Shown: in pieces, positions 1 to 43,000 of the stretch
How positions within the stretch are numbered: the stretch's first letter is position 1
Layout of the letters: each line of letters starts with the position of its first letter
IMG/VR virus record: IMGVR_UViG_3300031688_001478
Location: 1-64,000 of that record
DNA from: a virus
DNA length: 64,000 bases
Direction: 5' to 3' (one strand)
The notes under the pieces: model-generated
What the model saw: the letters and a program-made list of their open reading frames with translations, nothing else
The model's database searches: none
What the model was told of the DNA's origin: nothing
Translations under genes and position numbers: made by a program

Positions 1-3000
1 TGGATCAATAGTATAGAAGTAATCACCTGTAGTAACATCTTTATAGTTGTTTAACTGCTTGAGTAACGGTGTTTCAGTGTTAAGAGCGAAACATTCCCAC
101 GTTGTAGGTGTGGTTGCTACCCGGTATACTGGCTTTAAGTCTTTAAAACTGTTGTTAATTAACTGTTTAACAGTGAACTTGGTGTTGGTAAAGGTACCAG
201 TGGGTACTAAACGAACGCCACGTTGGGCATCTATGCTGTCAATCCACACGTGAACCACATGCTCTTCCCACTTAGTAGGCACATAATCAAACTTCCAATC
301 GCTTACTAAGGTGCTATGAGGATCAACTACCCAGTACATGTTGCTGTCTAAGTTCATTTCAAACAATAACAGTTGGTCTATTATGTCTTTATCACTGTTC
401 AAGTAGCATATAGGATACTCTTTTTGCTCACCTGCTACAGCATTTAATATTAATTGGTCTGGTATACTGCAAGTTAATACTTGTTCATCAGTTAATTGAC
501 TAGCATTATACGTTGTGGGCCACAGTCTAAGACCGCCATGTCCTATAACTAACCCTTCTGCGTCTGTTCTTTTCCATACATGCACTACATTTGTATTGTT
601 TACATGTGGTATAATGCTCTCTGCAATAACAGTTTCGGTTAATTCAATGTCTGGATCTACTGTCCACACATAGCCTACGTCACTATGCTTGGCTAATACG
701 TCCTGTATTTCCTTTGATGTCATGTGTTCTAACTGTTCAACGGGCCATATAGGATCTCTACTTGCTACCTTAGGCAGTTCTTTTAGTTTAACATAACTGT
801 TTTCTTTAATTTGTTCTAGTGTGTAGTGGGCTACCGGCATTAGTTTAACGCCACTTTGCTTACTGCTACCTGCATGTTGCCACATGTGGACTACATCTTT
901 ATCATATTGTGTTGGGTAATAACTATAATCGAAGTCTGCATCTACTTGTACATGTGCATCAACTACCCACATCATGCTTACGGTTGTTTGTAGTGCCAGA
1001 GCTTCGTAGACGCCGTCTAACGGCTGTAACAGTTCTTCCGGCTGTATGTGGTACACTGGATACTTTTTCTGTGTACAAGCCGGCTCTCTAATATACTTTG
1101 GTCTACCTTTGCCTTCGTTCTTGTTCCTTAAACTAACTCCACCGTAATCGTATTGCTTACCTGTTACAGGATTTAGTTTTTGCCATACATGTTGCTTACC
1201 ATCGTCGAACACATCAGGCTGGAAGTCAAAGTCAAATCCTACAAGTACATCAACGTCTGGATCAACTACCCAGAACCAAGCATGAGTACTCTTTGCTAAT
1301 CCTTCTTGATATGAACTGTATGTTTCAAACTCATACGTTAATGCTACAGGACTCATGTCGTGTACTTTAACATCACCATTCCAATCCTTTGGCATCCATA
1401 TAAGTATGCCATTGAATATATGTTTAGTGTTACGTTCGAATGTTGTTGGGCTCCACGGTATATGACTTATGTCATTAAAGGCTGTGGGCAGTATCCAACA
1501 GTCAGCATCTACTCGATCCATTCCTTCATCAGTGTATATGATCGGGTAGCTTCTACCTCCGACGGGGTTAGTGGCAATAAACTTGCTGTCCTCACTGCCA
1601 GATCTCGGAACAAGTTTAATACCTCCTGCTCTGTTGTCGCTGATATTTGTAATTGCTTTGGGGTATTTGTGTTCCAGGTCATCCGGAAACTTGAATATGT
1701 GTATGTACTTTGTGTCATGCTGTTGTGGAACATAGTTGAACTCCTCGTTAATTTGATGTTCGTTGTCTACTAACCAGAACATTTTAGTTCTGCTTTTCCT
1801 TGCAGGAGTATCATAGTCGCTGATATTATCTGCATAGAATATATCATAACGTACAGGACAAATATCTTCTTGATACTTATGCTTGGTTACGTCAAAGTGT
1901 TTGTTCATTAATCGTACGCCACCACATCGGGTATCCCATGCGTCTGTAAAGTCTGCCGGGTAACGTTCTTCTAGGTGACTGGGTATTTTAAATACATGTA
2001 TATAATCTAATTCGTGACTTGCTGGAACGTATAACAGTTTACCATTAAACTGAAACTCTCTATCCACAATCCAGAACCATTCTGTTTTACTACGCTCTGC
2101 ATAGTCGCTGTATGTTTCTGCATTAAAGTCTTCGTTGTCTATATAGAACACATCATACGCTTCGTCCTCTACTGGACATGCAGGATGTATTTTAAGTTCC
2201 GCGTCTTTCCAATTCATAGGCACTAGTCTAATGCCACCCATACCCAACGGATACTTTTCTTTTAATTGGTATGGCATTTTAAAACTGTGTACAAAGTCTT
2301 TCTCAAAAGGATTAGGAACCCAGTCAAGTGTTTTAGTATTAATAGTATGTTCTTTATCTATTAACCAAACATATTCGTTTGTGTGTACATCACGCTGACT
2401 GTAATCGTCTACGTCGGTAACAAACATAAACGGTATGTCTAAGTCTGCATTTAAGAAGCCGTGGTATTTAATTTGTGCGTCTTTCCAATCACGTGGATAT
2501 AATTTAATGCCACCTTCTTCTTTTGGATACTTATGTTCTAGTTGTCCCCTTAAATGAAAACTGTGTATGAAGTCTGGTTCAAAGTTCCCCGGTGCCCAAT
2601 CGATGTTTTCAGTTATTTTATATTCAGGATCAACGCACCAAACATGTGTGCTACTAGAGTTATCAAAGTAGTCCCCCGGTGTCGTGCTTGTTAGTACGTT
2701 GAATGTTTTTGTACATGCTACTGCATTGTGATGGAATGTTTCTGGAAACCCAATTGGCTTTTTAACTTTTAATGTTACTCCGCCATAGTTCAATTGGTTC
2801 CACTTCCAAACATGTTCGTAATTTTTTGTATGCGAGTCTGGCTTAAAGTCAAATATACTATAGTCGGTAACAGTAATGTCTTCTTCGATGAACCAATACA
2901 TTGATGTATTGCTAGAGATAGCAGACACGTTACTGACTTGTTGTGCAAAAGGTAACTGCTCTACTAGAGCTTCGTTCTCTCCTACATAAAAAATATCATA

Positions 3001-3003
3001 CAT
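1..3003 (-). CDS. Tandem-repeat glycosyltransferase-like protein, 3' end beyond window
   Basis: I translated this frame by hand: it starts at ATG 3003 and has no stop in 1,001 codons to the window edge, so the C terminus is missing. The protein is built of at least ten tandem modules of about 70-110 residues, starting near residues 1, 101, 190, 283, 386, 486, 557, 648, 751 and 863, with an eleventh cut by the edge (from about 959). Each module runs: an opening like YDIFY or YPVYH, a W-x-V-V-D-x-D/E/H motif, an aromatic-x-P, an I/V-H-V/S-W/F motif and G-G-V-x-L-x-P. Module 6 has lost the aspartate. The pattern matches the single-module protein at 28044-29039, whose VDGDN motif looks like a GT-A DxD metal site, so this is probably a chain of glycosyltransferase-like or derived glycan-binding domains. 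The start overlaps the upstream gene by 8 bases. Activity of the modules is unknown. Confidence 0.8.
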   Translation of the reverse strand, partial: MYDIFYVGENEALVEQLPFAQQVSNVSAISSNTSMYWFIEEDITVTDYSIFDFKPDSHTKNYEHVWKWNQLNYGGVTLKVKKPIGFPETFHHNAVACTKTFNVLTSTTPGDYFDNSSSTHVWCVDPEYKITENIDWAPGNFEPDFIHSFHLRGQLEHKYPKEEGGIKLYPRDWKDAQIKYHGFLNADLDIPFMFVTDVDDYSQRDVHTNEYVWLIDKEHTINTKTLDWVPNPFEKDFVHSFKMPYQLKEKYPLGMGGIRLVPMNWKDAELKIHPACPVEDEAYDVFYIDNEDFNAETYSDYAERSKTEWFWIVDREFQFNGKLLYVPASHELDYIHVFKIPSHLEERYPADFTDAWDTRCGGVRLMNKHFDVTKHKYQEDICPVRYDIFYADNISDYDTPARKSRTKMFWLVDNEHQINEEFNYVPQQHDTKYIHIFKFPDDLEHKYPKAITNISDNRAGGIKLVPRSGSEDSKFIATNPVGGRSYPIIYTDEGMDRVDADCWILPTAFNDISHIPWSPTTFERNTKHIFNGILIWMPKDWNGDVKVHDMSPVALTYEFETYSSYQEGLAKSTHAWFWVVDPDVDVLVGFDFDFQPDVFDDGKQHVWQKLNPVTGKQYDYGGVSLRNKNEGKGRPKYIREPACTQKKYPVYHIQPEELLQPLDGVYEALALQTTVSMMWVVDAHVQVDADFDYSYYPTQYDKDVVHMWQHAGSSKQSGVKLMPVAHYTLEQIKENSYVKLKELPKVASRDPIWPVEQLEHMTSKEIQDVLAKHSDVGYVWTVDPDIELTETVIAESIIPHVNNTNVVHVWKRTDAEGLVIGHGGLRLWPTTYNASQLTDEQVLTCSIPDQLILNAVAGEQKEYPICYLNSDKDIIDQLLLFEMNLDSNMYWVVDPHSTLVSDWKFDYVPTKWEEHVVHVWIDSIDAQRGVRLVPTGTFTNTKFTVKQLINNSFKDLKPVYRVATTPTTWECFALNTETPLLKQLNNYKDVTTGDYFYTIDP

Positions 3004-3376
3004 CTATTTTGTGTCCTACTACTGCGTTTATATATTTATTGATATGGTCTAGTCCGTTGTCTAGGTTTTCTAATTCACGGAACATTAATTGGTTAGCACT
3101 AAAGCAACAATCGTCTCGGTGATGTCTTGCACTAATCTTACACACATGACAGTTCCCTTTTAGTTTCCAGAACATCATTTCCTCTGGAGTTAACAGTGGA
3201 TCATATAGCCATGGGTTGCGTGATACTTCGGTAGGCGATAGTTCGCTATAGTCGTGGTCCGCAAGTAGTTCTTTAACGTAACCGTTTATGCCTATTGCTT
3301 CTATTCGTTCTTTAACTTTTTCGTTAGTCACTTGTATGTACTCTGATGTTGTAATGGTTTGTAAAAGCAGTAGCAT
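2996..3376 (-). CDS. Small Cys/His-rich protein, unknown function
   Basis: A protein of up to 126 residues that I do not recognise. Its most notable feature is a Cys/His cluster (CHVC, then ARHHRDDCC) near residues 77-92, which could bind a metal such as zinc; this is inference from composition only. The ATG at 3376 overlaps the end of the carbamoyltransferase by 53 bases. A GTG at 3331 would overlap it by only 8 bases, the spacing typical of this operon, and would give 111 residues; neither start has a convincing ribosome-binding site. It lies between the carbamoyltransferase and the repeat glycosyltransferase-like gene and overlaps the latter by 8 bases, so the three are probably co-translated. 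Confidence 0.65.
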   Translation of the reverse strand: MLLLLQTITTSEYIQVTNEKVKERIEAIGINGYVKELLADHDYSELSPTEVSRNPWLYDPLLTPEEMMFWKLKGNCHVCKISARHHRDDCCFSANQLMFRELENLDNGLDHINKYINAVVGHKIDV

Positions 3377-4868
3377 CTTCTTTAGTATTAACTATTGGCT
3401 GACCTTTAACATTGAGACTCGTATTGAGAACAATAGGACAACCTGATACTTTGTGCCATTCGGATAGTGCTTCATATAGTTCAGGGTGCTGTTTTCTATT
3501 AACAGTCTGAACCCTACTCGTTCCATCCCCATGTACGACAGCAGGTATTTCATCTGGACGTTTGCATTTTGCTACAAACTGCATGTATGGACTTTCGTTT
3601 AAACCGCCCGGCAGTTCAAACCAATCTTGTACATGTTCTTCTAAAATGATAGGAGCAAACGGTCTAAACTTTTGTCTACGTTTAATTTCATTTACTCTAT
3701 CCTTAATCTCTTCCCCTCTAGGATCAGCAAATAAACTTCTGTTCCCTAATGCTCTAGGACCAAACTCTGCTCTGCCATTGGCAACTCCAAAGATTTCCCC
3801 ATTGTTTAAACTCTCGACAAACTTCCTTACGGGCCACTTGCCTTCTATTACAGTTCCTAAGTAAGGAGTTTTCCATTCTACTTTCTTTAATGTATCTGCA
3901 AAATGTAAGAATGCCGCGGCACCTAAACTACTTCCAGCATCACCTGGGTTAGGCATTATGTGTACGTCATCGAATATATCAAACAGTTTACTATTAGCAA
4001 CACAGTTTAATGCACAGCCACCCATGAACACTAAGTTCTTACTATGAGTGTACTTGTAGGCTAACTCCGCGTATTCCATAATTCTTTCTTCACATACTAA
4101 CTGAGCACTTGCGGCTAAGTCGTACTTAATTTGTTCGTTACCCGGAATGTTTAAATTGTTTATTAAGAAGTCGTCTGGTAAGCCTCTACTCATATCAATG
4201 GTGTGTAGACACTCTCCTCTATTCTCTTTAGTAATCTTTTCATGCTTAAACAATTGCTTACGCATCTGTTTAGCGAATATCGGATTACCGTATGCCGCCA
4301 TTCCCATTAGCACATATTCATCTTCCATAGGCTTCAGTCCTACTCTGGCTGTTACAGCACTATAGAATAAACCTAGACTACTTGGGAAGTTTGTTTCGTG
4401 TACCAATTCAAACTTGCCACCTCGTTCTTCATACCTGTATATGGTTGCAGTCTGCACTTCGCCTATTGCATCGATAGTCATTATAGCACACTCGTCGAAG
4501 TCACTAGTAAGTACTCCTGCGGCGGCATGACTTTGATGATGTAATGTATGCTGAACTGGAATACCGTCTAGCTGTGGATAAAATCTTTTAAGCCATTGCT
4601 CGGCAGTTGGTTCCGTGAACACAGCCTTAACTGCATCCATTCTCAGTTGTTTTAGTCTACGTTTAGACTTTAACTTACTATCCTCATGCATTACTATAAC
4701 ATCTGGCATGCCAAATGTCAATGCTTCTGCCATTAATTCTTTGTGTAAGAAAGGATCGTTCTTCTTTCTACTATAACGTTCGCTGTGACCAGCAAACATA
4801 ATCTTGCCTTCGTCGACTACACAAACAGACGCATCATGGAACATACAACTTATACCAAGTATTCTCAT
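3324..4868 (-). CDS. Carbamoyltransferase, NodU/CmcH/TobZ family
   Basis: A 514-residue enzyme of the O-carbamoyltransferase family, which moves a carbamoyl group from carbamoyl phosphate, through carbamoyl-AMP, onto a sugar or other hydroxyl. The N-terminal Kae1-like half shows HDAS at 11-14 and the metal-binding HHQSH at 110-114. The C-terminal YrdC-like half shows FGPRALGNRS and the NTSLN-x-KGQPI block near the end. It is somewhat shorter than many relatives and stops soon after that block. It overlaps the small acidic gene upstream by an ATGA junction. Neighbouring nucleotide-sugar and glycosyltransferase genes suggest that the acceptor is a glycan, but the sequence does not show the acceptor. 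Confidence 0.93.
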   Translation of the reverse strand: MRILGISCMFHDASVCVVDEGKIMFAGHSERYSRKKNDPFLHKELMAEALTFGMPDVIVMHEDSKLKSKRRLKQLRMDAVKAVFTEPTAEQWLKRFYPQLDGIPVQHTLHHQSHAAAGVLTSDFDECAIMTIDAIGEVQTATIYRYEERGGKFELVHETNFPSSLGLFYSAVTARVGLKPMEDEYVLMGMAAYGNPIFAKQMRKQLFKHEKITKENRGECLHTIDMSRGLPDDFLINNLNIPGNEQIKYDLAASAQLVCEERIMEYAELAYKYTHSKNLVFMGGCALNCVANSKLFDIFDDVHIMPNPGDAGSSLGAAAFLHFADTLKKVEWKTPYLGTVIEGKWPVRKFVESLNNGEIFGVANGRAEFGPRALGNRSLFADPRGEEIKDRVNEIKRRQKFRPFAPIILEEHVQDWFELPGGLNESPYMQFVAKCKRPDEIPAVVHGDGTSRVQTVNRKQHPELYEALSEWHKVSGCPIVLNTSLNVKGQPIVNTKEDATAFTNHYNIRVHTSD

Positions 4869-20962: not shown

Positions 20963-21947
20963 CGTCTTCCCATACAGCGATATCGCTAATGTAAGGACAT
21001 GCTTCTAATTTGGTTATAATACTTTCGAACGTTTCATTTTGTAACGCTCCTAGTTTAGCTCTGCCTATGGCATGTTTAGGCTCTGTGTGGTCAATGCCAT
21101 ATTTAGAAACTTCGTTGGCTTCACACCATTGATGCAATCTTCTATTTAAATGTGTTTCAACCTCAGCATCAAATACTTGAAACGAGGCTTGATTCAAACC
21201 AATACATGCACTACCGGATATTAATGTTTGAGGTTTAACCTCTTTACGTTTTATTAATTCTAAATCTTTTGATGCATAAGCATGACCTAAATCTTTGCCT
21301 ACGGTAAAGAAGTCTAAAAACAAATCACCTGTATAGTATTGACTTTGGAATTGTGCGTAGTCGTCATCTGTTAATTCTATATATTCTGCTTCTGCATTAG
21401 GACTAAAATGTCTTGCTACTATAAAGTATTGCTTCTCATCTAATTCTTCTACTGCAAAGAAACGAGATATGTTTGCTTCTATTTCGTGTACCGTTTTATT
21501 TAAACGTTCCAATATCTCTACTTCCGGATGAGATTCTTCTGTATAAACAAAGCCTGAAACTTCTGTTAACTCTACTAATTGTTTTTCAAAAATAAAATGT
21601 ACTTCGTTTAATTTGTCGTGCATTTCTTTTGTAGTATCTGTTATAGATAACTTTAGATCCGGATCGGCTCCTTGCGAATCTATATCAGTATTTAAACTAT
21701 TAATTAGTAGTTGCATGTTTACACTTTGATTAGCGTCATACAAATTCCAATGTAGCCATCTATATTCATCAGCTATTGCTGTTTTTGTAATGTTATAAAA
21801 CTGATTACCAATATGCGTGTCTGCTAGTTTCCAAACAAGTTCTTGGTTGCCACCTTTAAAACTACTCTTGCCTATTACATTAGTGCCACCACTATCCATT
21901 ACACCTACGGGTGTTGGACTTAAACTCAGTTTGTAGTACTTACTCAC
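20955..21947 (-). CDS. Unknown 330-residue protein between radical SAM genes F and G
   Basis: I do not recognise this protein. It is soluble-looking, with a likely helical or coiled segment near 105-170 (TTKEMHDKLNEVHFIFEKQL onward) and a conserved-looking block near 215-260 (FFTVGKDLGHAYASKDLELI, SGSACIGLN). It overlaps radical SAM gene G by an ATGA-like 4-base junction and gene F by 8 bases, so the three are very probably co-translated. A substrate protein, substrate carrier or partner of F or G is the natural guess. No catalytic motif was found. Confidence 0.75.
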   Translation of the reverse strand: MSKYYKLSLSPTPVGVMDSGGTNVIGKSSFKGGNQELVWKLADTHIGNQFYNITKTAIADEYRWLHWNLYDANQSVNMQLLINSLNTDIDSQGADPDLKLSITDTTKEMHDKLNEVHFIFEKQLVELTEVSGFVYTEESHPEVEILERLNKTVHEIEANISRFFAVEELDEKQYFIVARHFSPNAEAEYIELTDDDYAQFQSQYYTGDLFLDFFTVGKDLGHAYASKDLELIKRKEVKPQTLISGSACIGLNQASFQVFDAEVETHLNRRLHQWCEANEVSKYGIDHTEPKHAIGRAKLGALQNETFESIITKLEACPYISDIAVWEDDE

Positions 21948-23620
21948 TCGTCTACTGCTCCGCCAAGTCCATCAGTGTCTGTGTCCCAACCAATGCTACT
22001 ACCAGCACGTTTTTTAATATTAGGATTAACTCCTTCTATTTCATTTTCGTATTTGGTATCATCATAGTCATCGTCGCTCTCACCTGTTTGGCGCCCACGT
22101 ACTTTCATTTCTACAACTTTAACTTCGCCGTCCTCTGTAACAATACGTTTGGCATACAATGTATTAGTTACACCTACACTATCTGGTGCTTGTATGTCGT
22201 GGTCATCGCTAATGTCTAATACATCAATGCTGTCGTACCAGTCTACTAGCCTAGGGAATGTTGTTCTAAAATTATGTCCACGTCTCGAATCGTACTGCTC
22301 GTAAAACACTTTGAAGTCATGGTCTAACAAGTATTGCTCTGCTGTATTCCTGTGTGGAGTTTTAACAACATCTAAATATTCTATTAGTCTGCTTATTTGA
22401 TCTTGTTCCCATGCTTGGAGTAATTCTACGCCATGCATATCTCTCTCGCCTTTATTTCGAGTATCATCTAACCACTCGCTAAGTTCATCATGATACATTT
22501 TACGCAAGTCATCTGGCAATGTTAATGGACTTTGGAAACTAGGGAAACGTAATATGTTTACACTAATACCCGGAACGTGATGTCCGTATTTTCTCTTCAT
22601 AGACAATGTCCAATCTAAGAATTGACAAATAGTATCTAAGCATAATGCATTGACAGTCATCATCATGTGTACGCCTTCGTATCTTGCCTCTGTGGCAAAA
22701 CGTTCAAACTGTGCTGTCCATATTTCCCAATCTAATCCGTCTCTGATATATTCTGCTTGGGCACCAAAGGCTTCACAACTTGTATACACATGGAAGTGGT
22801 CAATGTGTTGTGTAGCATCAATAAACTTGTTTAGTAACCCAGGCTTAGCCATTAAGTTACTGTTAATAGCCAAACGCATCTTCTTAGCATTGGGCTCGTC
22901 TGTTTCTTTAAACCAATCGAACAGTTTGTAGATACTAGGAGTCATTAATGGCTCACCGCCAGTAACACGAATCTCTTCTAGCTCTTTACTTAGCTCGGGC
23001 CACCATCTCCAAAATGCATCTACATAAGGATTGGCTGTACCGGCATCGTACGGTTCGGCATACGGAGCATCATCGATAAAGTGACCTCTTGCATCTGACT
23101 TAATACCTTGATACCCACCATTGGTTCTAATATCTTTAACCCATGTACTACTAAACGCAGGATTGCAATAACTACATGCTAACTGGCATGTTCTATCAAA
23201 TGCAACCTCACAGGTTTTTAAATTAACATCAGCGTTAGGATCTAACGTTGCAATGTGTTGTAAGTCTCTATCTTCATATATAACTGTTTTATATACTCTG
23301 TCGGACACAGCTTCATTGCCGTCCGAGTCTTGCCCCATGTCTTCAATCTTCCAACAGTACTCACACTCTTTGGGCCGTGTGCCTTCCTGCATCATTTGAC
23401 GCATCTTCTTTTTGTGTCTGCTGTTGTGAATAGCACTAGGGTTTTCTTTAATGTCTTCTAAATCTATTTGGTGTGCTGGGGGATGATGACAACTAGTTGT
23501 TCCACCATGGCCCAACCATATAGTAGCATTGTACCATTTGGCGCCGCAAAAGGAATCTGATACTGGATCTATCATCCTTGCTTTAAATTCTCTGTGAGTC
23601 TCGTCTACCTTCCTAACCAT
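21944..23620 (-). CDS. Radical SAM protein G, CHHPP subgroup
   Basis: A 558-residue radical SAM protein, about 100 residues longer than A-F. The N-terminal domain differs: FCGAKW (Cys25), then SCHHPPAH (Cys44 followed by His and Pro) in place of the CC pair, then CEYC (86/89). The core is CQLACSYC (145/149/152), with TGGEP as the SAM motif. The C-terminal motif is RTTFPRLVDWY, followed by about 90 acidic, low-complexity residues. Radical SAM protein H shares the CxHPP signature and length, so the two form a subgroup. It is upstream of the 330-residue unknown and overlaps the SDR gene by 8 bases. Confidence 0.9.
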   Translation of the reverse strand: MVRKVDETHREFKARMIDPVSDSFCGAKWYNATIWLGHGGTTSCHHPPAHQIDLEDIKENPSAIHNSRHKKKMRQMMQEGTRPKECEYCWKIEDMGQDSDGNEAVSDRVYKTVIYEDRDLQHIATLDPNADVNLKTCEVAFDRTCQLACSYCNPAFSSTWVKDIRTNGGYQGIKSDARGHFIDDAPYAEPYDAGTANPYVDAFWRWWPELSKELEEIRVTGGEPLMTPSIYKLFDWFKETDEPNAKKMRLAINSNLMAKPGLLNKFIDATQHIDHFHVYTSCEAFGAQAEYIRDGLDWEIWTAQFERFATEARYEGVHMMMTVNALCLDTICQFLDWTLSMKRKYGHHVPGISVNILRFPSFQSPLTLPDDLRKMYHDELSEWLDDTRNKGERDMHGVELLQAWEQDQISRLIEYLDVVKTPHRNTAEQYLLDHDFKVFYEQYDSRRGHNFRTTFPRLVDWYDSIDVLDISDDHDIQAPDSVGVTNTLYAKRIVTEDGEVKVVEMKVRGRQTGESDDDYDDTKYENEIEGVNPNIKKRAGSSIGWDTDTDGLGGAVDE

Positions 23621-28043: not shown

Positions 28044-29039
28044 TTACAGCAATCCTTTTTCTAAAAGTTCTTGTATTTGTTTTTCTCTAACCATTGCACC
28101 CCAACGTTTAGGATTAACAAAAGTCTTCTTAAAGAATTTACACATGTTAGGATTTGGATCGAACAACATCATATCATTAATTTCTTCGTTTAATGTTACA
28201 CCGATATCCTTGATTGCTATCTCTAACATCTCAGGATTATGTGATACTTTAGTGTAAGGGCAAACGACATTGCCTGGGAAACGTGGTAGCACTTGGTTAC
28301 TAAAGAAATCACTAAACCAGTCATAGTCTGATATTAAATTAGTATCCCATTCAGTTAATACAGTCATTTGGCATCCAAGCCTTGCTCCGTATATAGCCCA
28401 CATGCCGTTGTCTATATCACTTCCAATGTTACACCATGTTTGTAATCTGTTATAGTTCTGCCACCATATCTTATCTTTAAATTCATCTGGCTTTACACGA
28501 ACACCTTGGTCGGTACTCATTTTAACGCCTTCTCTAAAGCCTGCTCTGAAGGCTTGAAACGGACTTGCTGTTTGATGTACTTCACTGAATGTGTCGTTAA
28601 GTTGTATGTAATCTAGCTTCCAACAAAACTCCATACCCTCACCATCTTGTGCGGACTCATGAGTGTTAATTGTTTTAGTATATTCTGTGGGCCAACATTT
28701 AAGTCCACCATTACCGTACACTAAACCGTTTAGAATGTTTTTAGCATTCCAACTAAAAATACATTTACTGATATCATTACCATCATGATCTGTCTCAGGA
28801 ACATCTAATACTTGTTCGAAGAAATCATCCATAACAATATTGTCACCGTCTACTGTGATAAATCGTTCTGTTTCTGATTGGTTAGCACATGCCTTGTGAG
28901 CGGCATCGAATCCTGTAACTCCGTGTACTCGTTTAGCCCATGGGACCTTGTTTAACAAGTCTGCCCAATGTTCTTCTGCATTTGGCTCGTCATAGCTGAT
29001 GTAAAAGATATCTAATTCTGTTACGTCTATTTTCGCCAT
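28044..29039 (-). CDS. Glycosyltransferase-like protein, single-module relative of the repeat protein at 1-3003
   Basis: A 331-residue protein opening with LDIFYISYDEPNAEEHW and carrying a VDGDN motif (Asp64, Asp66) that looks like the metal-binding DxD of GT-A glycosyltransferases. WNAKNILNGL and GNGGLKCWPTEY follow. The order I-F-Y, D-x-D, aromatic-W, G-G-L-x-x-W-P is the same as in each module of the left-edge repeat protein, most clearly module 9 (GHGGLRLWPTTY). The rest (residues 115-331) has no counterpart there. I take it as the more complete, probably active version. A late-promoter-like box is 38 bases upstream. Donor and acceptor are unknown. Confidence 0.65.
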   Translation of the reverse strand: MAKIDVTELDIFYISYDEPNAEEHWADLLNKVPWAKRVHGVTGFDAAHKACANQSETERFITVDGDNIVMDDFFEQVLDVPETDHDGNDISKCIFSWNAKNILNGLVYGNGGLKCWPTEYTKTINTHESAQDGEGMEFCWKLDYIQLNDTFSEVHQTASPFQAFRAGFREGVKMSTDQGVRVKPDEFKDKIWWQNYNRLQTWCNIGSDIDNGMWAIYGARLGCQMTVLTEWDTNLISDYDWFSDFFSNQVLPRFPGNVVCPYTKVSHNPEMLEIAIKDIGVTLNEEINDMMLFDPNPNMCKFFKKTFVNPKRWGAMVREKQIQELLEKGLL

Positions 29040-29064: not shown

Positions 29065-29682
29065 TTATACTCTAACGTATTTATCATATATTTTGGAGGT
29101 GTATATACTAATGTCGGTAAAATTAGCAAGTGTATGGGGTAATGTAACTGTTTTATCTTTGTGTAATGCAATACCGTCGACTATAAATTTCTCTATTACA
29201 AAATGCGGGTCGCCTTTTTCTGTTGCATAAAATTTTAAATTATGCTTTGTTTTATTCTTTTTAATTGTGTTAGCATGTATCTTTACTGTAATCTCTTTTG
29301 CAGTCAGGCTTACTTTTACATCAAACGCACTACCATTAAAGCCTACGTAGGATTTAACTTCAGTTAAAAAGTTTCCGTTAGTAGTAACTTTGTCACTAGT
29401 GTAAGTCTTTAATATAATATGGCAAACACCATGTTCATCTCGTTCTATACTGAACTGGGCCATTCCCTTTTTACGTTCATCAATAATTTTACAATCAATA
29501 GTTTTAAGTTCTGCAACAGCATTGTCACCGATAGATTTTGCTTCAGGCGGCTTAGTACTTTTATATAATATGTCACCATCATCATTGTATACCAAATAAG
29601 TAGTATCGTTTTCTGATGCAATTACTTTTGCTAAACTACCTTTCTCTTGTTTAAGTAGAGCTAATCGTTCACCTGGAGTCAT
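29065..29682 (-). CDS. Unknown 205-residue protein
   Basis: I do not recognise this protein. The C-terminal two thirds look like an all-beta domain (alternating strands such as VSLTAKEITVKIHANTI and DPHFVIEKFIVDG), and a lysine-rich loop (IKKNKTKHNLKF) lies near 152-163. There is one CxI-D and few cysteines, no signal peptide and no membrane segment. The beta-rich character suggests a binding or structural protein. It follows the glycosyltransferase gene 29692-30555 by nine bases, and its last codons hold a late-promoter-like box for the next gene. Confidence 0.65.
   Translation of the reverse strand: MTPGERLALLKQEKGSLAKVIASENDTTYLVYNDDGDILYKSTKPPEAKSIGDNAVAELKTIDCKIIDERKKGMAQFSIERDEHGVCHIILKTYTSDKVTTNGNFLTEVKSYVGFNGSAFDVKVSLTAKEITVKIHANTIKKNKTKHNLKFYATEKGDPHFVIEKFIVDGIALHKDKTVTLPHTLANFTDISIYTSKIYDKYVRV
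29078..29085 (-). promoter_or_regulatory. Late-promoter-like box (GATAAATA)
   Basis: Minus strand GATAAATA, one base from TATAAATA, in the last codons of the upstream gene and 38 bases before ATG 29039. The leader would contain an AGGA ribosome-binding site. Distance resembles the metK and dehydrogenase boxes. Confidence 0.4.
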
Positions 29683-31848: not shown

Positions 31849-32734
31849 GGCTTAGTAACTCCTTACTTACTCTATTTATCGCCCACTTGTTCATAACATG
31901 TATATCTACGCCACGCCATCTACATAACATAAAGTCGCCTAGACTTTTTGGCTTCTCTAAGTAGAATATTAATTCATTTTTCTCTGGAGAGGAATGTACA
32001 TCGTCGGTATCAAATGTTTTATAAAGTGCAGGCACCGGAAGTTGTGGAACTCCTTTCTCTACAAATCCGGATAGCATGTGTGCGGCTACACTAAAACTGT
32101 AATCATTACGATATAAGCCACCGGGCCATCTGTACAGTTCTTGGTAGTATTGAGTGTTGTCTCGTACATGTCGTACGGTATTAAAAAACTGTTGTGCATA
32201 GTTAGACTTTTTAAAGTAAACTACTGTAGCCCAATACATAGTGATGCCAACAGGACTCAAACGTTTAAGTGAATCGTCATTACGTTCTGACATAATGTCT
32301 TCGTAGTTCCAGTTCATCATTAATTCGTTGTCGTGTCCCCAACACTGATTTAATACATCACTCATAACTAAGTAGTCTGCATCTATTAGTATTGTTTCAT
32401 CATATGGACTTAGGTCGTAAGCATCACATCTATCTATGTTATAAAACGGAAGTGATGTACTTTTGTGGCTCGTATCTTTGTATGAGCGTCTGTTAATGTT
32501 CTTGAATGCTTTGTCTTTAGTTGTTATAACAATATTTGATATAGCATTGTGTATGAAATCGTAACCCATTTCATCTAAGTTATAATCATAACTGTATTGG
32601 TTTGTAACAACTGTGATATTATCTATACCTAAGTTTTCTTTGATATAGTATGCATTTATAGTTGCTAACTTTAGATAATCTATTTCCTCATTGTTATGAG
32701 CAAATATTAATATGCCTTTACTTGGAGTTGTCAT
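31838..32734 (-). CDS. GT-A glycosyltransferase-like protein (GT8-like), paralogue of 29692-30555
   Basis: A 298-residue protein. N-terminal strand GILIFAHNNEEIDYL, PYDETILIDADYLV with Asp118-Ala-Asp120 as metal-binding DxD, then ATVVYFKKSNYAQQFF and DYSFSVAAHML match the order of the gene at 29692-30555. ATG 32734 is preferred to the TTG one codon upstream. It overlaps the 122-residue gene upstream by 17 bases. Together with its paralogue it would add sugars to an acceptor not identifiable here. Both lie between the fibre genes and the radical SAM cluster. Confidence 0.75.
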   Translation of the reverse strand: MTTPSKGILIFAHNNEEIDYLKLATINAYYIKENLGIDNITVVTNQYSYDYNLDEMGYDFIHNAISNIVITTKDKAFKNINRRSYKDTSHKSTSLPFYNIDRCDAYDLSPYDETILIDADYLVMSDVLNQCWGHDNELMMNWNYEDIMSERNDDSLKRLSPVGITMYWATVVYFKKSNYAQQFFNTVRHVRDNTQYYQELYRWPGGLYRNDYSFSVAAHMLSGFVEKGVPQLPVPALYKTFDTDDVHSSPEKNELIFYLEKPKSLGDFMLCRWRGVDIHVMNKWAINRVSKELLSHVM

Positions 32735-33086
32735 CAAGTTCCATATCCACCAGCTTATGAACTTTTCTGCTTTTCTTTATTTTGGAATATTCGTAATGAT
32801 ATTCGTTGGTAGCTTCAAAGTACCTTGATAGAATCTCTTCTAAGAAATCATCTAGCCCGACAATTTCAATTGGATTGTTATACACATCTAACAGTACTGC
32901 TTTAGTGTGCCCTTGTGTTATTAATGTCTGTACAAACGATATAAGCATTTGAGAAATCTCAAACGTACCACCGTTAGTACTGTAACTTAATAGTGTTTGC
33001 ACTTTAGATCGAAGTGCGTTGTGTTGTACGTTTAGAGTTAATCTATAGTTCGCGAACTCTAATGCTTTGGTTAATTTAGAAGTCAT
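32718..33086 (-). CDS. Conserved-looking small phage protein, unknown function
   Basis: A 122-residue, probably helical protein (YRLTLNVQHNALRSKVQTLL at the N terminus; LDDFLEEILSRYFEATNEYH in the middle) ending in a basic stretch and an acidic tail. I associate this pattern with unannotated small proteins of T4-like marine phages, but cannot name a family. It is the first gene after the strong terminator at 33104-33135. It has a late-promoter-like box whose 3' end is exactly five bases before ATG 33086 and no clear ribosome-binding site, so its mRNA may be leaderless. Confidence 0.7.
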   Translation of the reverse strand: MTSKLTKALEFANYRLTLNVQHNALRSKVQTLLSYSTNGGTFEISQMLISFVQTLITQGHTKAVLLDVYNNPIEIVGLDDFLEEILSRYFEATNEYHYEYSKIKKSRKVHKLVDMELDDNSK

Positions 33087-34223: not shown

Positions 34224-34231
34224 TATTTATC
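34224..34231 (-). promoter_or_regulatory. T4-type late promoter box (GATAAATA)
   Basis: Minus strand GATAAATA, one base from consensus, beginning on the last base of the tail-fibre stop codon and 27 bases before ATG 34196. The leader carries an AGGAG ribosome-binding site. Confidence 0.6.
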
Positions 34232-36396
34232 TATCTAACACCGATAACTGCTTCTACTATGCCTTCACCGCCGTCATTTTTATCTTCTAAACTTCTTCCT
34301 ACAATAGCCCTTGTGTCATACTCATCTTCCATACTTGCCCATGCAACTCCTGGAACATCACTAGAAACTAAACGTTGTCCTTTCTTAATTTTGCCAATTA
34401 CTTTAACAGGTACTCTTCCTGCTAATGCTACTGGTAAACCTTCTGCTTCACTGTTCATTAAGTAAGCAGGGTTTGTTGATATAACACCAAACACATCTGT
34501 GTCTGCATGTTCTAAAGTCATTGTAATTTCAGCATCGCCACCAATTTTAACTACTGTGCCTGCCTCGTAAGTTGCGTCAGCTGAGTATATCTCCGCCATA
34601 TCCGCGTACTTAGCCGAACTTGCCACACCAGTAAATGTTGTTGCAAATACTTCTGCGTATTTGAGACTTGCTGAACCTAAGCTAACTGCATTATCTGTTG
34701 CTGGTGTAATATTATGTGTATGCGTGTCTGCCGCATCGCTTCTTAAGAAACTTGCACTACTAATACTATCTAATGTATCAGCGTCTACGTTTAAAGCATC
34801 GATTACAGACTTAGTTACTTGACTGTCTACATACCCTTTAACTGATTGTTGAGTTGGAATAAGTGTAGCACTATTGCTAGACATATTATCTTCGTCAACG
34901 AATGCTGTTGCAGTAATTGTACCATCAGATAATGAACCAAACTTAACAGTAGTTGAACCTGCATCAACACCTGCTGTTGCGAGTAGCTCAGATGTAAATG
35001 ATTTTGCACCACCTAATGTTTGCGTACCTGTTGTTCTAATAACTGTGTTGTCTACAGCAACTGAACCAACTACTCCGCCGTTGTATGTAAAGTCTGCAAT
35101 ACCATCGCCGTCTGTTAGTGCATTGCTTAACGATGTATTCTGTAAGTTACCTGTACTAGCATCAAAAATAACTGTGCCATCTGTTGCTTTTAAGTCAAAT
35201 CCTTTAACACCGTTAGTAGTAATATTCTGTGTAGCTGTTACTGATACATTACTTAAATGTGCTGTATCCATCGGGTTAGCTGTAGAACCAATTGTTTCAA
35301 TTGTGTCTGCTCCAAATCCTATAATACTTCCCGACATGTGAATGTCGTCTACATATAATGTTTTAACAGGCTTTGATGTTGTACCAACTGAAAGTTTTGA
35401 TTGACCGCCAGCATCAGTAATAGTATGTATAACTTGATCAGCCGCTGATGAACTACCAATTGTAATCGATCCGCCTAAAAATGCATTATTAAATCGTTGT
35501 GTTGAAGTACCTAACGAAGCAGTATCTGTATTAGTTGGAATAAGATTTGTACTACCTGTGTGGTAGAAGCCTGCTGATGGAGTTATGGATCCGGAAATTA
35601 GTAATGCATTAGCCGAGGTAGCCGAAGTGGCTAAGTCCGCTAATGGTACTGATGTATCACTATATGCTCGTCTTAAATTCATACCTGGCTTAATAACTAA
35701 GCCAATACCTAAACCGCCCGAGTCATTAAATTCGCTGGATAAATCTACAGATGCACTGTCGTTATCTCTATAACTCGTTCCTAATGTAGCGTCTGTTACA
35801 GTGAACTCTACGTTATCACTAAAGATAGCCATAACAGTTTCAAGTCCTGACGGAGTACCAAAAGCGGTACCACTGTCATTAACATATACTAAGGCTATAA
35901 CTGCTCTTTTAATACTGTTGTTGTCTGTTAAATATAGTGTTCTTAATCTTGTTCCAAAGTTAGGACCGCCTGACTCTGATTGCCATCTACTTGTTACAGT
36001 ACCTGGGTATGAAACTTCACGCCATGCTGTACCGTCATATAATTTTTCTTTGTTGTCAACTGTATCGAAGTAAGTTGTGCCGGCGGCTAAGTCTGATGTC
36101 GGGGCCGAAGAAGCAATGAGAGGAGTTTGCCTTCTCCATGCCGTGCCATCATATACACGCATAGTGTTGTCAGATGTATTATACCAATGCTGACCTACTA
36201 ATGCTGTTTTGCCTCTAGCAACTGGATTACTAGTAGAAGCAAAGTTCTCTAGCATCCATAAAGTGTTTTGTACGAAAAATTGACCATAGCCTGATACGTT
36301 CCTGCCTACAAGTGCTACACCATACTTAGTGCTTACCTCACCTGTTGCGACGGTAATAGTACTGCCTTCGTCTGTCGTTTTTACTGAATACGTCAT
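34231..36396 (-). CDS. Tail fibre protein
   Basis: A 721-residue protein with fibre-type repeats. Two copies of a W/Y-x-x-T-x-D-N-x-x-x-V/L-YDGTAWR motif lie near residues 70-130, a pattern common in fibres of T4-like marine phages. A long beta-rich stretch with many T-x-x-LG-S-x-x-R-F/K-like segments follows. The C-terminal domain has ALAGRVPVKVIGKIKKGQ, then LVSSDVPGVAW, which resembles the terminal assembly/chaperone-type domain of other phage fibres. The ATG at 36396 has AGAGGA as ribosome-binding site. It probably recognises the host surface or links to the receptor-binding tip. Confidence 0.8.
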   Translation of the reverse strand: MTYSVKTTDEGSTITVATGEVSTKYGVALVGRNVSGYGQFFVQNTLWMLENFASTSNPVARGKTALVGQHWYNTSDNTMRVYDGTAWRRQTPLIASSAPTSDLAAGTTYFDTVDNKEKLYDGTAWREVSYPGTVTSRWQSESGGPNFGTRLRTLYLTDNNSIKRAVIALVYVNDSGTAFGTPSGLETVMAIFSDNVEFTVTDATLGTSYRDNDSASVDLSSEFNDSGGLGIGLVIKPGMNLRRAYSDTSVPLADLATSATSANALLISGSITPSAGFYHTGSTNLIPTNTDTASLGTSTQRFNNAFLGGSITIGSSSAADQVIHTITDAGGQSKLSVGTTSKPVKTLYVDDIHMSGSIIGFGADTIETIGSTANPMDTAHLSNVSVTATQNITTNGVKGFDLKATDGTVIFDASTGNLQNTSLSNALTDGDGIADFTYNGGVVGSVAVDNTVIRTTGTQTLGGAKSFTSELLATAGVDAGSTTVKFGSLSDGTITATAFVDEDNMSSNSATLIPTQQSVKGYVDSQVTKSVIDALNVDADTLDSISSASFLRSDAADTHTHNITPATDNAVSLGSASLKYAEVFATTFTGVASSAKYADMAEIYSADATYEAGTVVKIGGDAEITMTLEHADTDVFGVISTNPAYLMNSEAEGLPVALAGRVPVKVIGKIKKGQRLVSSDVPGVAWASMEDEYDTRAIVGRSLEDKNDGGEGIVEAVIGVR

Positions 36397-37067: not shown

Positions 37068-40000
37068 TTAAGTACCTTGTATGAATCCTACTATACTATT
37101 AACGTCAGTTGAGCCCGATGTATCACTTAAACTTGTAGTAACATAGGAACTATCACTGTCATCTGCTAACCAGTTCAGGTCTTGTGGATCTCTATAACCA
37201 GCCAATTTAATATTTTGTGTTTCTTCACCGTTGTATACTTTACTGCTTACTGCAATAATTGGGTTAGCCGTTGTACCTCTAGTACCACGTATAATGCCTA
37301 GCAACTTATTACTTATTGAGTCAATGCCTGTATACTCTATTCTTTCTGAGTTAATCCATATAACACCTTTATTACTAGCGGATGCGTTTGGTAAAACATC
37401 AGCATCTGCTACTGTAATGGTAGTATCCCACTCATTAACTATTGCTGTAACTGTTGTTAATCCTGATGTCGAACTTCTATAAAAGTCTGTTCTTCCAAAT
37501 AGATCCATAAACACAGTATGTCTAACTGGTTTAGAACTTGCTGTTCCTATTGCAATATTGCCATGTGAAACGTTACTTGTATAAACATTCATAACTAATG
37601 TTTCAAATGGTTGTATAACAATAAGTTCTTCTGGTCTGTCTGGTCCGTATCCTGACTTAGTAAATGTTACTGCATCAAATCCGTATACTGTTTCGTTGTT
37701 AACTCTATAGTTTACAGCGCCTTGACTATCGGTATCAAACACACCGTGGAAGTTATTAACTGTTACATCTTTATCCCAAACTTCTTCATCCCATGCAAAG
37801 AAGTCAAAGCCTCTTGTATTAGTGTAGAATGTAGTTGGGTGTGTGCCTGGAACAATATCCATAAACACATTAGCATCTAATATCTCGCCGTTAAAGTCTC
37901 CGCCAACTGCTGTCTTAACTAAACTTAATGTATAGTTTAGGTTGCCATCGTTAACCATGTTAGTCATAATAGCTTTATTAGTTGTTATAGTTGTATTTGC
38001 TCCTGCGCCAGTGCCGTGTGCTGAATCCATAGCATGTACAAATGCTGTTCTAATATGTGTATTGAACTTAAACTCTCTGTCACTTGCTCTCCAATTAACA
38101 CTAGTGTTGCCCATTGCGGCTTCTGTTGTGCCTTCAATACTTATAATGTTTTTAGCAATACTTTCTTTTAATGTTTCTTTAGCAGGGTTAAAGCCGTGTA
38201 CTGATTCAAAGTCAAGTACATCACCTACTTGTATTCCACCTAATGTTGGATTGTCTGTGTATGCTTTATTAAACACAATTTTGTTATCTGCAACATTATA
38301 TGTCCAGTTAGTAACTGCGCCGGCTAGTAACGTACTAGCACTAACGTTTGGTACTACTACGTCATTATGCCTAACTGTTAAACTAGAAACATCACTTGCA
38401 TCAGTAATGTAAGGTATGAAGTTAAATGGTACTTCAGTTAAGTTACTGGATGCTATTACTCGCTGTGTCTTTGTTGTAAGCGAATTTTGATACAAGTCTG
38501 AATTAACTCTATCAATTATAATCTTAGTGTTTATTTTTCTTACTGGAGCATTACTACTTACAAATCCTGCGTATGCTGTATCGCTGTTAAGTATAGTTGC
38601 ATCAGCTGTAATACTTGCATCTAGTATACGAACAGATGTTGCATCCTCATCAAAGTATGGAGGTCTATCAAAGTCACTAGTTGATCCCTTCAATATTTCT
38701 ACTGGAGCTTTCTTAATATCTCTATAGTTTCTAATCTTACTACTGTAAGGTTTAACTTCATTGAAGTATTCAACTGCTTTGCTAAAGTTATCAACTTTTA
38801 ATCCTTTAAATTGGATTAAGTCAGTTTCTTCTTTTTGTACATTTAAGTATGTAGATTTAAACGCCCAACTCAATTCTATTTGTTCGCCTATTGCAAACTT
38901 AACCATACTAAAGAATAACTTGTTCCAGTAAAGTTTATGTGTGCCTATGAATACTTTAGTGTACAAGTGATGTAGTATTTGTCTAATCTCTTTTCCGATT
39001 TCAAGTTGTTGCTTATCAGTGTATACCTTTTTATTCCACTGTACCGTTTCGTTTTCCATAGCAATCAGTGTAAACTTGTTATCTGTTTTAGTGTATTCGA
39101 ATAACTTATATTTAGAAGTAGCAGTATCTTGTACTTGTATAATACTCTTGTCTAGTAAGTTTTTTATTAACTTTAATTGCTTTTCAGTTTTAACTCGTCT
39201 AAGTGGTCTATAATCTTCGTTATAATAAATTTTAGTATTTTTTACTTTGTTAGTTCGTAGTAACTTAAACCAGTTAGAAGTTATTAAATGAGGAGTTGAA
39301 GTTGGTAGCCCAACTCTCCAATCTGTAAATACTGTGTCCATTTGTAGTTCTGAGAATATGTCGTTCATTGTTTCGAACATTTGCTTTCTAGCCGCTAAAA
39401 TATCCTTAAACATTGTTTGTCTAGGTCTAAACTGTGAACCGTATCTCTCGCCTTCACTAAGTCCTGCAACAGGAACAATTTCGTTTATAGCATTGTATCC
39501 TGCTAAACTGTCCATAACCTTAATACTTAGGTTGTGCGGAATAGTTGCATTAGTATTGCCTTCACCTGCTAAAGTCCAGCTGGTGTGCTTCTGCGATAAT
39601 CCAGATTCTTTTCTTCTAAAGTTTAAACTTACAATAGAGTCTTCAGTTTTAATTAAATCGCCTAACTTATTAATTGTCATTGCTTCCGGAGAAACAAGTG
39701 CAAAATAAGGCATTCTGTTTCCTTCAGGATTATCTAACAACTGTTCAAGCTCTTGTGTACTTTTGTTTCTATTGTATTTCATCATAGCATCGTTGGATAC
39801 TTCACTTATGCCTCTAACCCAATAGTAGTACGAAGTTATTGTTTTGCCTCGTTTGTTTATTGCTTTCTCATCAATGTATGCACCACTGTCTATTGCTGTT
39901 CCAGGTCCTGCATATTCTATTGGTGGTACAGTATTTCGTGTCCACTCGTAAATTACAATTTCACTTCCTGGGAATTTAGAACCCCAATCATTGTTTCGTT

Positions 40001-43000
40001 GCATATTATTGTAAGCAAATTGTCCGTATGTTCCTTTACCTTGCTCGTACCAGTTATATCGTACTTTACTAGTATCCCACCAAGTTTGTCCTACTTGCTC
40101 TTCGCCAAACTTAGTATACGCTGGATCATACACAATAGGATCATTCTCTACTTTGTAAGTAATGTCCTTATCTATGAATCCTGGTATAATACCTTTGAAT
40201 GGATCGTATAAGTTAATATCAAATTCTTTTACAGCCGTATCAGCATCGTAAGTAATTACGTCATCTATGAATGCAATGTCTGTTAATGTTTCTTGCTTTC
40301 TTATTACTGTACCGCTTTCTAAATATGCCCAGCCGTTACCACCGTAGTTATCAATCCATACATTGGCATGGTCGGCTAATGTTAATCCTGCTTCAGTGTC
40401 ATATCTCATGCTCTGTAACAATAATGGTTTAACGTCTTGCCTTGTGAGGTTCGTGTTAGTAAACACAACAGGGCTAGTGCCGTCTACTCCTCTAAGTTCG
40501 TATTCATACAAGTTTGCTATTGTACTAGCATTACCTAATCCCATTCCTAAAGTAAAGCCTTGCGTCCATGGAAGGTTACCTTGCCAACCGCCGCCACGTC
40601 CTAATAATCCTGCTGTACTGTTAGCGCCTGTTAATGCAGAACCAGTAACGTCTAATTGAGGATCAATGCCAGTGGAGTCGATGTTCTCAAAGTTTGGATA
40701 AGTTCCACACACATAGTCACCATCTGTAATGCCTAATAACTGTAGTAGTCCTGGGTTAAGTTCATCACTTAGTCTTATACCACTAATGTTTGGTCCGCCC
40801 ATAAGTAGTTCGCCGAAACTAGCAAGGTCGCCACCGGTTCCGTCACCGCCGCCACCAGGGCCGCCATTTGCTCCGGTTAATCCTCTGCTACCGTTTCTGC
40901 CGTCTCCGTTATTATCTCCATCTGGATTTAAAGGTCGTCCGTCCGGTCCGTATTGTACTTCGTCTGCTCCGAACCAAGGGTTACCATTTTCGTCTAATGG
41001 ACTCCATAAAGTAATGTCATCTGCTAATTGTCCTAATGGGGAACGCGGAAGAATCATGCCATTTGGCAGTCCTAAATCGTTGAGTGCATTACCGGCTTCG
41101 CTACAGCTAGGAATATCTCTTGCTGTTAAGAATACTCTACCGCCTGAACCTGCACCGGGCTTATTCAATGTGCCCAAAGTATCACTGTCAAGTACACCTG
41201 TTGTTTTACGTTTAATATCGTACTGTATTGGTACGCCAGCGTCTAAGTCACTTGGGAATATTTTGTATATGCCTCTATCAATAACTTGTATATCTGTTAT
41301 GCCGCCATAGCCGTCAACGCCTGTAATAACAAACTTAGCAGGTCTCTCAACAGCTGGCTGAGGTTTAAGTCTCGCGGACACTTCCGCATCTCTACCTTGT
41401 CCTCTAACGGTAATAGTTGGAGGATTATCTATGCTATAGCCAGAGCCTTCTAGTTTCAAGCCTACTGAAGCTATTCCGCCATTTGAATCGTAAGTGATTG
41501 CGTCATAGTCTACTAATGCTCCACCACCTGGTTCGCCACGTTGTCCAATCTTAAACGTTATAGGTGTAGCCATTCCATTTGTAAGGTAGCCACTGCCTGG
41601 GTTATTAACTGTGAATGCAAGAATGCCACTAGTACCTTGACTTACTACAGGTGTACCACCCATAAGTCTCATTATGGCTCCGACTTCGTAACCTGTACCT
41701 GCTGTAATACAAATACTGCTTTTAACAAGAGCTTGTCTGTTTTGTTCTGCTGTTACAGTATTAGTAGTATATGATGTAACATGTGTAGCAACATCCAACG
41801 TACTTGACGTGCCGCTGACAGTATGTCTAGTTGCGCCTGCGCCAGTTGTAGTTGGTGTTAGTGTTGTTTCTTTATTAAAGCATACTTGATTATCTTGCTT
41901 AATAGAATAGTCTAACACTTCTTTATATATTCCGCCTGCACAACCATTTCTAATTATCATTGGATCTGATAACTTGTTTCTAATCATTAAGCACTTTTCT
42001 TTAGTTGCTGAATCTACAGTAATAAGAACGTTAACTGATGTTGTTTGACTTAGTATCTCTTTCTTAATTGCTGTTAAGTTAGTTGAGCCACTTAGCGATA
42101 TGCTATCACCGTTAATAAAGAACGAGTCACCGGCGCCAACCATTTTAGTTTGTCCACATATTTTAACTCTAGCTTTAGGCTTACAAATTGGTACATTAAC
42201 TGTTCCACTTACTGGAGCAACTGTGCCTGATGTTGAATTCTTCTGTAAAGCTGTTAATGAAAGATAGCTAGTACTTGCTGTATTGTTCTGTTTCTGATTA
42301 AGACCTACACCAGATACTAAACCAGTTCCGCCAAATATTGCTCCGCTGGTCATATTGCCGTTAACACCGAACTGAGGAACTCCTGATGGTGCTTGGTTAA
42401 TAGGGTATGTTTTGTATATTGGGAGATTAATAGATCCCATTCCACCATAGCCGCCTGAGCCTCCTAGGTGTATCATGTTCTGTCCTACGTTTAATCTGCT
42501 ATTAGAATAGCCACCTATAAAGTTATGCGCCATGCCTGCTATGGGTGGGTATAAAGGAAAGCCGTGTATCTGTGTTTGGTTTGCCAATGTTACCAAATTA
42601 GTATTCTGATTTCCGTTTGGAGGAGGATTACCAACTCCAACTGATCCCTTACTTGGGTAGCCGGCTCCGTTAACATCGTCTGCTGGATGTTCCATGTAAT
42701 ATTTAAATGCTGTACTTGTCTTCGAATCTTTGTCTAGAGTAATAGTAATATATCTGCCTTTACTAGCATCATATGTAAATGATATTTTGCCATTTTCTTT
42801 AACAAAGCCGTTACCATGTTCTGTATAACCTTGATTTATTAACTGACCAGGGCCAACATTATTTTGTTGCCATGGTGTCATTCCAGCTGATATTTGCCAT
42901 TTAACACCTGACCATGCATGTATATCTACTTTGTCTATAGGACTTAATGTACTTGCAACGCCTGTGCCTGCAATCTTAGATCCAGTCGATCCTGCATGAG

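Follow-up and report, generated by a model that had tools for sequence, protein, structure and literature searches.

A probable sugar-attaching enzyme of phages with up to 17 truncated copies of its catalytic domain ahead of one intact copy

Here, we describe a gene, referred to as gene B, at the end of a viral contig from IMG/VR (IMGVR_UViG_3300031688_001478), of which positions 1 to 64,000 were analysed (the window). Gene B starts with an ATG at position 3003 and is encoded on the minus strand; its open frame of 1,001 codons runs off base 1 (1-3003). This frame, which the first-pass annotation had noted as leaving the window, is real, and because base 1 of the window is also base 1 of the 101,134-base record, gene B is truncated by the contig end, with the remaining 293 codons past the contig edge. 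The annotation had also proposed to look for the full gene in assembled contigs, and it was found in two near-identical contigs, L002 and L003 (L003:10001-13885), whose translations are identical and 1,294 aa long (P0003). Compared by eye, the full-length copies differ from the window frame at one residue, N for D near residue 988. A third contig carries a diverged homologue of 1,308 aa that is ∼40% identical.

Upstream of gene B lies gene K (3324-4868, minus strand), which encodes a carbamoyltransferase of the NodU/TobZ type. An ORF of 126 aa (2996-3376, minus strand), for which a family search gave no match, overlaps the end of gene K and the start of gene B. Gene A (28044-29039, minus strand), homologous to the complete module of gene B described below, encodes a complete GT-A-like paralogue with a VDGD motif. 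Genes A and B lie ∼25 kb apart in the window with radical-SAM, carbamoyltransferase, and other genes between them. The stretch from 5803 to 27394 encodes seven radical-SAM proteins, often with SPASM (Pfam E < 1e-3), three of which score under the Radical_SAM gathering score, together with a fatty-acid desaturase and a UDP-glucose/GDP-mannose dehydrogenase; the ORF at 21944-23620 appears, by eye only, to be an eighth radical-SAM-like gene. In other loci the two genes are neighbours; here, this block seems to keep them apart. Two small conserved genes of the cassette (32718-33086 and 29065-29682) gave no Pfam or PHROG match and have relatives in 41 and 26-40, respectively, of the loci first fetched. 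The cassette adjoins tail-fibre and baseplate genes, which lie upstream of gene A. An open frame of 5,536 codons (37068-53678), in which a search for DNA tandem repeats found none, lies between the gene for the tail fibre (34231-36396) and one for a baseplate wedge protein.

The full-length protein P0003 consists of 12 modules, i.e., 11 short modules, of which 10 were detected by profile and one, M6, was assigned by position, followed by one complete module at the C terminus (aa 1079-1294). The window covers ten short modules and part of the eleventh; thus, the earlier count of at least ten degenerate modules was correct for the visible part and missed the complete twelfth module past the contig edge. 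With approximate boundaries, and all on the minus strand, the profile places M1 at aa 1-97 (2713-3003), M2 at aa 98-187 (2443-2712), M3 at aa 188-282 (2158-2442), M4 at aa 283-384 (1852-2157), and M5 at aa 385-484 (1552-1851), with IEED, VDPE, IDKE, VDRE, and VDNE, respectively, at the position of the Asp-x-Asp (DxD) motif. The most degraded module, M6 (aa 485-555; 1339-1551), has LPTA, and its assignment is based on position and on weak matches of its counterparts in close relatives. M7 (aa 556-653; 1045-1338) keeps VDPD. M8 (aa 654-756; 736-1044; VDAH) and M9 (aa 757-861; 421-735; VDPD kept) are the first and second halves of a two-module unit, of which M10 (aa 862-962; 118-420; VDPH) and M11 (aa 963-1001, where the contig edge cuts it; 1-117; IDPD) are the second copies. 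M7 to M10 were detected by profile, and M11 was detected by profile on the full-length protein.

A BLASTP self-comparison of the whole gene B protein reported the full-length match alone and no repeats; therefore, the repeats are demonstrated by a profile in combination with shuffled sequences. Only complete C-terminal modules, from other contigs and from this family, went into this profile, and its comparison with shuffles is the repeat test. The ten detected short modules in P0003 have domain scores of 3.8-49 bits while the highest-scoring domain among 200 shuffled versions of P0003/P0004 reaches 1.8 bits, confirming the tandem repeats described for 1-3003. M6 is below the profile threshold in P0003, and the corresponding modules of close relatives reach only 5-7 bits, which fits the loss of its aspartate noted earlier.

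The complete module is a full domain of 217 residues and is present in P0003 only as module twelve, where the motif reads VDGD. An AlphaFold2 model of this module based on 42 homologues has a mean pLDDT of 92.0 and a pTM of 0.85. In a Foldseek search of the PDB, it matches HddC, ArnC, polypeptide GalNAc-transferases, WrtF, and SunS (best E 6.8e-4, TM 0.3-0.5), and nearly all of the top PDB and viral fold matches are GT-A or nucleotidyl-sugar enzymes (E 7e-4 to 1e-2). In BFVD, the top two matches are uncharacterised metagenomic phage proteins, A0A6J5LK21 and A0A6J5L5L5 (TMq 0.93 and 0.91; 26-27% identity); the matches after these have much weaker scores and are mostly viral glycosyltransferases, among them that of mycobacteriophage Che8. 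PF00535 gives weak matches in 4 of 42 family members (E up to 0.1; best 6.4e-4), and none of the window's proteins matches it at E up to 1. Because these fold and PF00535 matches are weak, the assignment of the complete module as a GT-A-type glycosyltransferase domain is consistent but remote; nevertheless, they argue for the GT-A-type origin first proposed from the letters alone. Across 94 distinct complete modules, both Asp residues of the VDxD motif and several further positions show 100% conservation, and the helical C-terminal half carries the invariant residues R148, E149, and K152. We, therefore, predict that the last module of the gene B protein transfers a sugar.

The short modules keep the sheet-forming half of this domain, i.e., strand 1, the strands bearing DxD, H-V-W, and G-G-V-x-L, and the next strand, and all of them are without the helical half bearing R148, E149, and K152. 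In 500 distinct short modules, core positions remain highly conserved (W 88%, H 85%, G 91%, and L 85%), with hydrophobic and turn positions at 85-91%. By contrast, the Asp pair of the DxD motif, which is at 100% in complete modules, is at 74% and 36% in the short ones, and the N, Y, G, and K of N-P-V...Y-G-Y-G-G-V-K drop from 100% to 34, 22, 13, and 26%, respectively. An AF2 model of M7-M9 (mean pLDDT 91.9, pTM 0.83) has in each module a helix and the strand order of the complete module up to strand 123-133; the C-terminal helices are absent. The best PDB matches of this model, chondroitin polymerase at the top and then WrtF and LH3, are weak (E 7.9e-4, TM about 0.2). Structure prediction, once suggested as a check for one module, gives weak GT-A matches for M7-M9 and for the complete module alike. 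In a profile-profile comparison, M7 aligned with the complete module (E 2.3e-15).

Gene A and the complete gene B module are homologous over most of their length (28% identity in A1, 240 bits), in line with the kinship originally claimed for 28044-29039. However, 397 of 402 short modules score higher with the gene B profile than with the gene A profile, and gene A was accordingly rejected as the source of the array. At the level of sequence, these scores indicate that the short modules are truncated, diverged copies of gene B's own complete domain, in agreement with the duplication and divergence of a domain that had been proposed. With the helical half missing and most of them without one Asp of the DxD motif, the short modules are more likely non-catalytic, as the first-pass annotation had also preferred. 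Because both Asp residues persist in 158 of 553 short modules, chiefly in those at positions −1 and −3 counted from the C terminus and not in those at −2, some short modules may still bind a metal or nucleotide. The window parallels this pattern in that M7, M9, and M11 have both Asp residues in contrast to M8 and M10.

The alternative raised at the outset was a polymerising enzyme with several active sites, in which several modules would be catalytic and would extend a glycan processively in the manner of the two GT-A domains of chondroitin polymerase. The VDPD or IDPD of M7, M9, and M11, the retention of DxD mostly at positions −1 and −3 across relatives, and the top rank of chondroitin polymerase among the PDB matches of M7-M9 are in its favour. 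However, an enzyme of this type would have at least two complete catalytic domains per chain while 71 of 75 non-redundant proteins (closed proteins thinned at 90% identity) have one complete module and two are seen only in four A+B fusions. Since the half with R148, E149, and K152 is missing from every short module and only the last module is complete, a multi-active-site polymerase is unsupported, and the loss of the N-P-V...Y-G-Y-G-G-V-K residues also stands against it. We consider this explanation very improbable.

The length of the array varies considerably. Among the 75 non-redundant proteins, the number of modules ranges from 1 to 18, as counted with an iterated profile that was trained on the counted proteins, and the complete module sits at the protein end, with a median of 2 residues after it. 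The array is absent in 17 of the 75 relatives, and the basic reaction, therefore, does not require it. The relatives closest to the window have modules 1-7 in common and vary in the copies of the M8-M9 unit. Based on module counts and identity patterns, L009 and L004 have one copy; P0003, L095, and L123 have two; L093 has three, L094 four, and L096 five. Pairwise module identities, computed for the relatives before L108, fall in L096 into two alternating classes for odd and even modules (44-54%), and two adjacent modules in L017 are 91% identical. The recent duplicates in L017 are possibly affected by assembly, a concern that applies far less to the diverged units of other loci; moreover, loci from one sampling series may represent one population. 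These patterns indicate that arrays grow or shrink by tandem duplication, often of two-module units.

Differences in copy number between close relatives and badly degraded modules such as M6 could also be explained by replication slippage leaving decaying copies without function. Three observations contradict this explanation. First, array dN/dS is 0.06-0.21 in eight pairs and is similar for the complete module. Second, the longest open frames of array proteins reach 1,953 aa. Third, the first five modules are collinear across long-array relatives. Thus, the arrays are kept by purifying selection, the decay reading was rejected on the dN/dS values across arrays, and a functionless by-product of slippage is extremely improbable.

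The genes around gene B come in two arrangements. Gene K is directly upstream of gene B in 31 of the 75 non-redundant relatives, all 31 of which have at least nine modules, and in 29 of these 31 loci gene C follows downstream of gene B to give the order K-B-C. An orthologue of gene A of ∼300 aa is directly upstream of gene B in 47 other loci; loci with this arrangement have 1-7 modules, and gene C is absent. Arrangement and module number are associated with P 2e-10, a value that is not independent evidence because the two groups of loci are related lineages. Gene A is fused to gene B in six loci, in three of which A, B, and C form a single ORF. Gene C (L003:14161-14868; L004:13914-14576) has a G-x-G-like stretch and a conserved NTSCEH motif; it was labelled methyltransferase-like by eye, and family and PDB searches with it found nothing.

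That gene K encodes a carbamoyltransferase and adjoins gene B in 31 relatives also fits a scenario of phage DNA modification, in which A and B would glycosylate and K would carbamoylate a hydroxymethylated base, and phage glycosyltransferases that glycosylate DNA are known. A carbamoyltransferase from a virome acts on 5-hydroxymethylcytosine, and the pairing of a carbamoyltransferase with a thymidylate-synthase relative marks modified contigs (PMC8670742). However, a thymidylate-synthase-family gene (dCMP hydroxymethylase; PF00303) is absent from the 101-kb record, which is possibly incomplete; the cassette adjoins tail genes; and glycosyltransferase neighbours have been reported for unmodified contigs too (PMC8670742). 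Altogether, DNA modification is decidedly unlikely.

The location of the cassette next to baseplate and tail-fibre genes, together with repeated modules that vary in number and are predicted to be rigid, is also compatible with gene B encoding a virion protein, i.e., a structural spacer or adhesin with modules as beads that bind host glycans. By contrast, the complete C-terminal domain has an invariant active-site set, and gene B sits among genes for enzymes (the carbamoyltransferase, the methyltransferase-like protein, and gene A), two of which are joined to it in a fusion in some contigs. A spacer or adhesin is, thus, unlikely.

The explanation that we favour, and that we regard as somewhat better than even, is that one catalytic C-terminal glycosyltransferase domain works together with a non-catalytic array that holds or spaces the acceptor. 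In this model, the C-terminal module would provide the single active site for sugar transfer, and the truncated modules would be rigidly stacked, non-catalytic sugar- or protein-binding domains made from gene B's own core. The row of modules would hold, present, or space the acceptor, thereby enabling one active site to glycosylate many sites. As a guess from gene order, a phage surface protein is the likely acceptor; DNA is less likely because the record has no thymidylate-synthase relative, unlike the pairing described in PMC8670742. Glycosyltransferase genes that adjoin structural genes are a feature of virion glycosylation systems, and the gene A cassette lies by the tail-fibre and baseplate genes. 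More speculatively, the acceptor might be the tail fibre, whose gene lies at the opposite end of the cassette, and the carbamoyltransferase and methyltransferase-like protein from the neighbouring genes might decorate the added sugar. A further suggestion, which we regard as doubtful, is that the number of dead modules acts as a tunable ruler in which gains and losses of two modules set the number or spacing of the acceptor sites that can be reached. If so, array length would evolve together with how long the glycosylated fibre or the glycan is, and the specificity of an enzyme would be encoded in copy number, for which no description was found.

At least 597 stretches in IMG/VR were confirmed as belonging to the family, and the look of the relatives together with marine MAG names points to uncultured aquatic phages. 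Six contigs assigned to bacterial MAGs (L085-L090) carry single-module or A+B-fused relatives with the same radical-SAM neighbours and may be phage sequence binned with bacteria. Despite being frequent in environmental viral contigs, the family was found in no isolate phage and in no Pfam or PHROG family. Specifically, a tblastn search of 50,697 isolate-phage records, which may omit very near ones, gave no match for P0001, P0002, P0004, or a single-module relative, and the window's proteins had no Pfam match above the cut-off, no PHROG match, and no PDB sequence match. A search of the literature on tandem or inactive glycosyltransferase domains in phages found nothing on the plan of gene B. 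Within these searches, the initial statement that no phage protein of such a plan has been described holds, except that the two uncharacterised BFVD proteins are members of the family. These uncultured Caudovirales phage proteins, A0A6J5LK21 (804 aa) and A0A6J5L5L5 (1,076 aa), belong to it by fold, and their BFVD/UniProt descriptions give no function, module structure, or copy-number analysis.

Among known systems, the closest are the GT2-like glycosyltransferases of the GT-A fold (PF00535; ArnC, WrtF, SunS, and polypeptide GalNAc-transferases), which share with the gene B family the order of elements and the Asp-x-Asp after the first sheet strands and which include the best structural matches of the complete module. 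However, the gene B family is too divergent from them for Pfam, PHROGs, or PDB sequence searches at curated thresholds, and it has extra characteristic C-terminal helices and arrays of truncated copies. The Che8 glycosyltransferase (Q855A2 in BFVD) matches the complete module with a Foldseek probability of 1.00 and TMq 0.46 at 12% identity, a comparison by fold only, and we know of no array in this protein. Virion glycosylation has been reported for mycobacteriophages (cited in PMC12619734). Gene B probably encodes a sugar-attaching enzyme of phages in which one live catalytic core follows up to 17 stripped copies of it; how many of these copies there are varies among close relatives while selection preserves their sequences. 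The family offers a natural series, from 1 to 18 modules, in which the capabilities of a dead catalytic fold can be explored. Two-domain GT-A polymerases such as the chondroitin polymerase K4CP (2z86) also have more than one GT-A domain per chain; however, both domains of K4CP are complete and active while in the gene B protein only the last of up to 18 modules is complete. Pseudo-enzyme domains are usually single and lie beside an active partner. LH3, which is among the matches of the M7-M9 model, has a GT-A domain and a glycosyltransferase-like accessory domain without activity; in contrast to the gene B protein with its variable array, LH3 is an animal enzyme with another partner domain and a single accessory domain.
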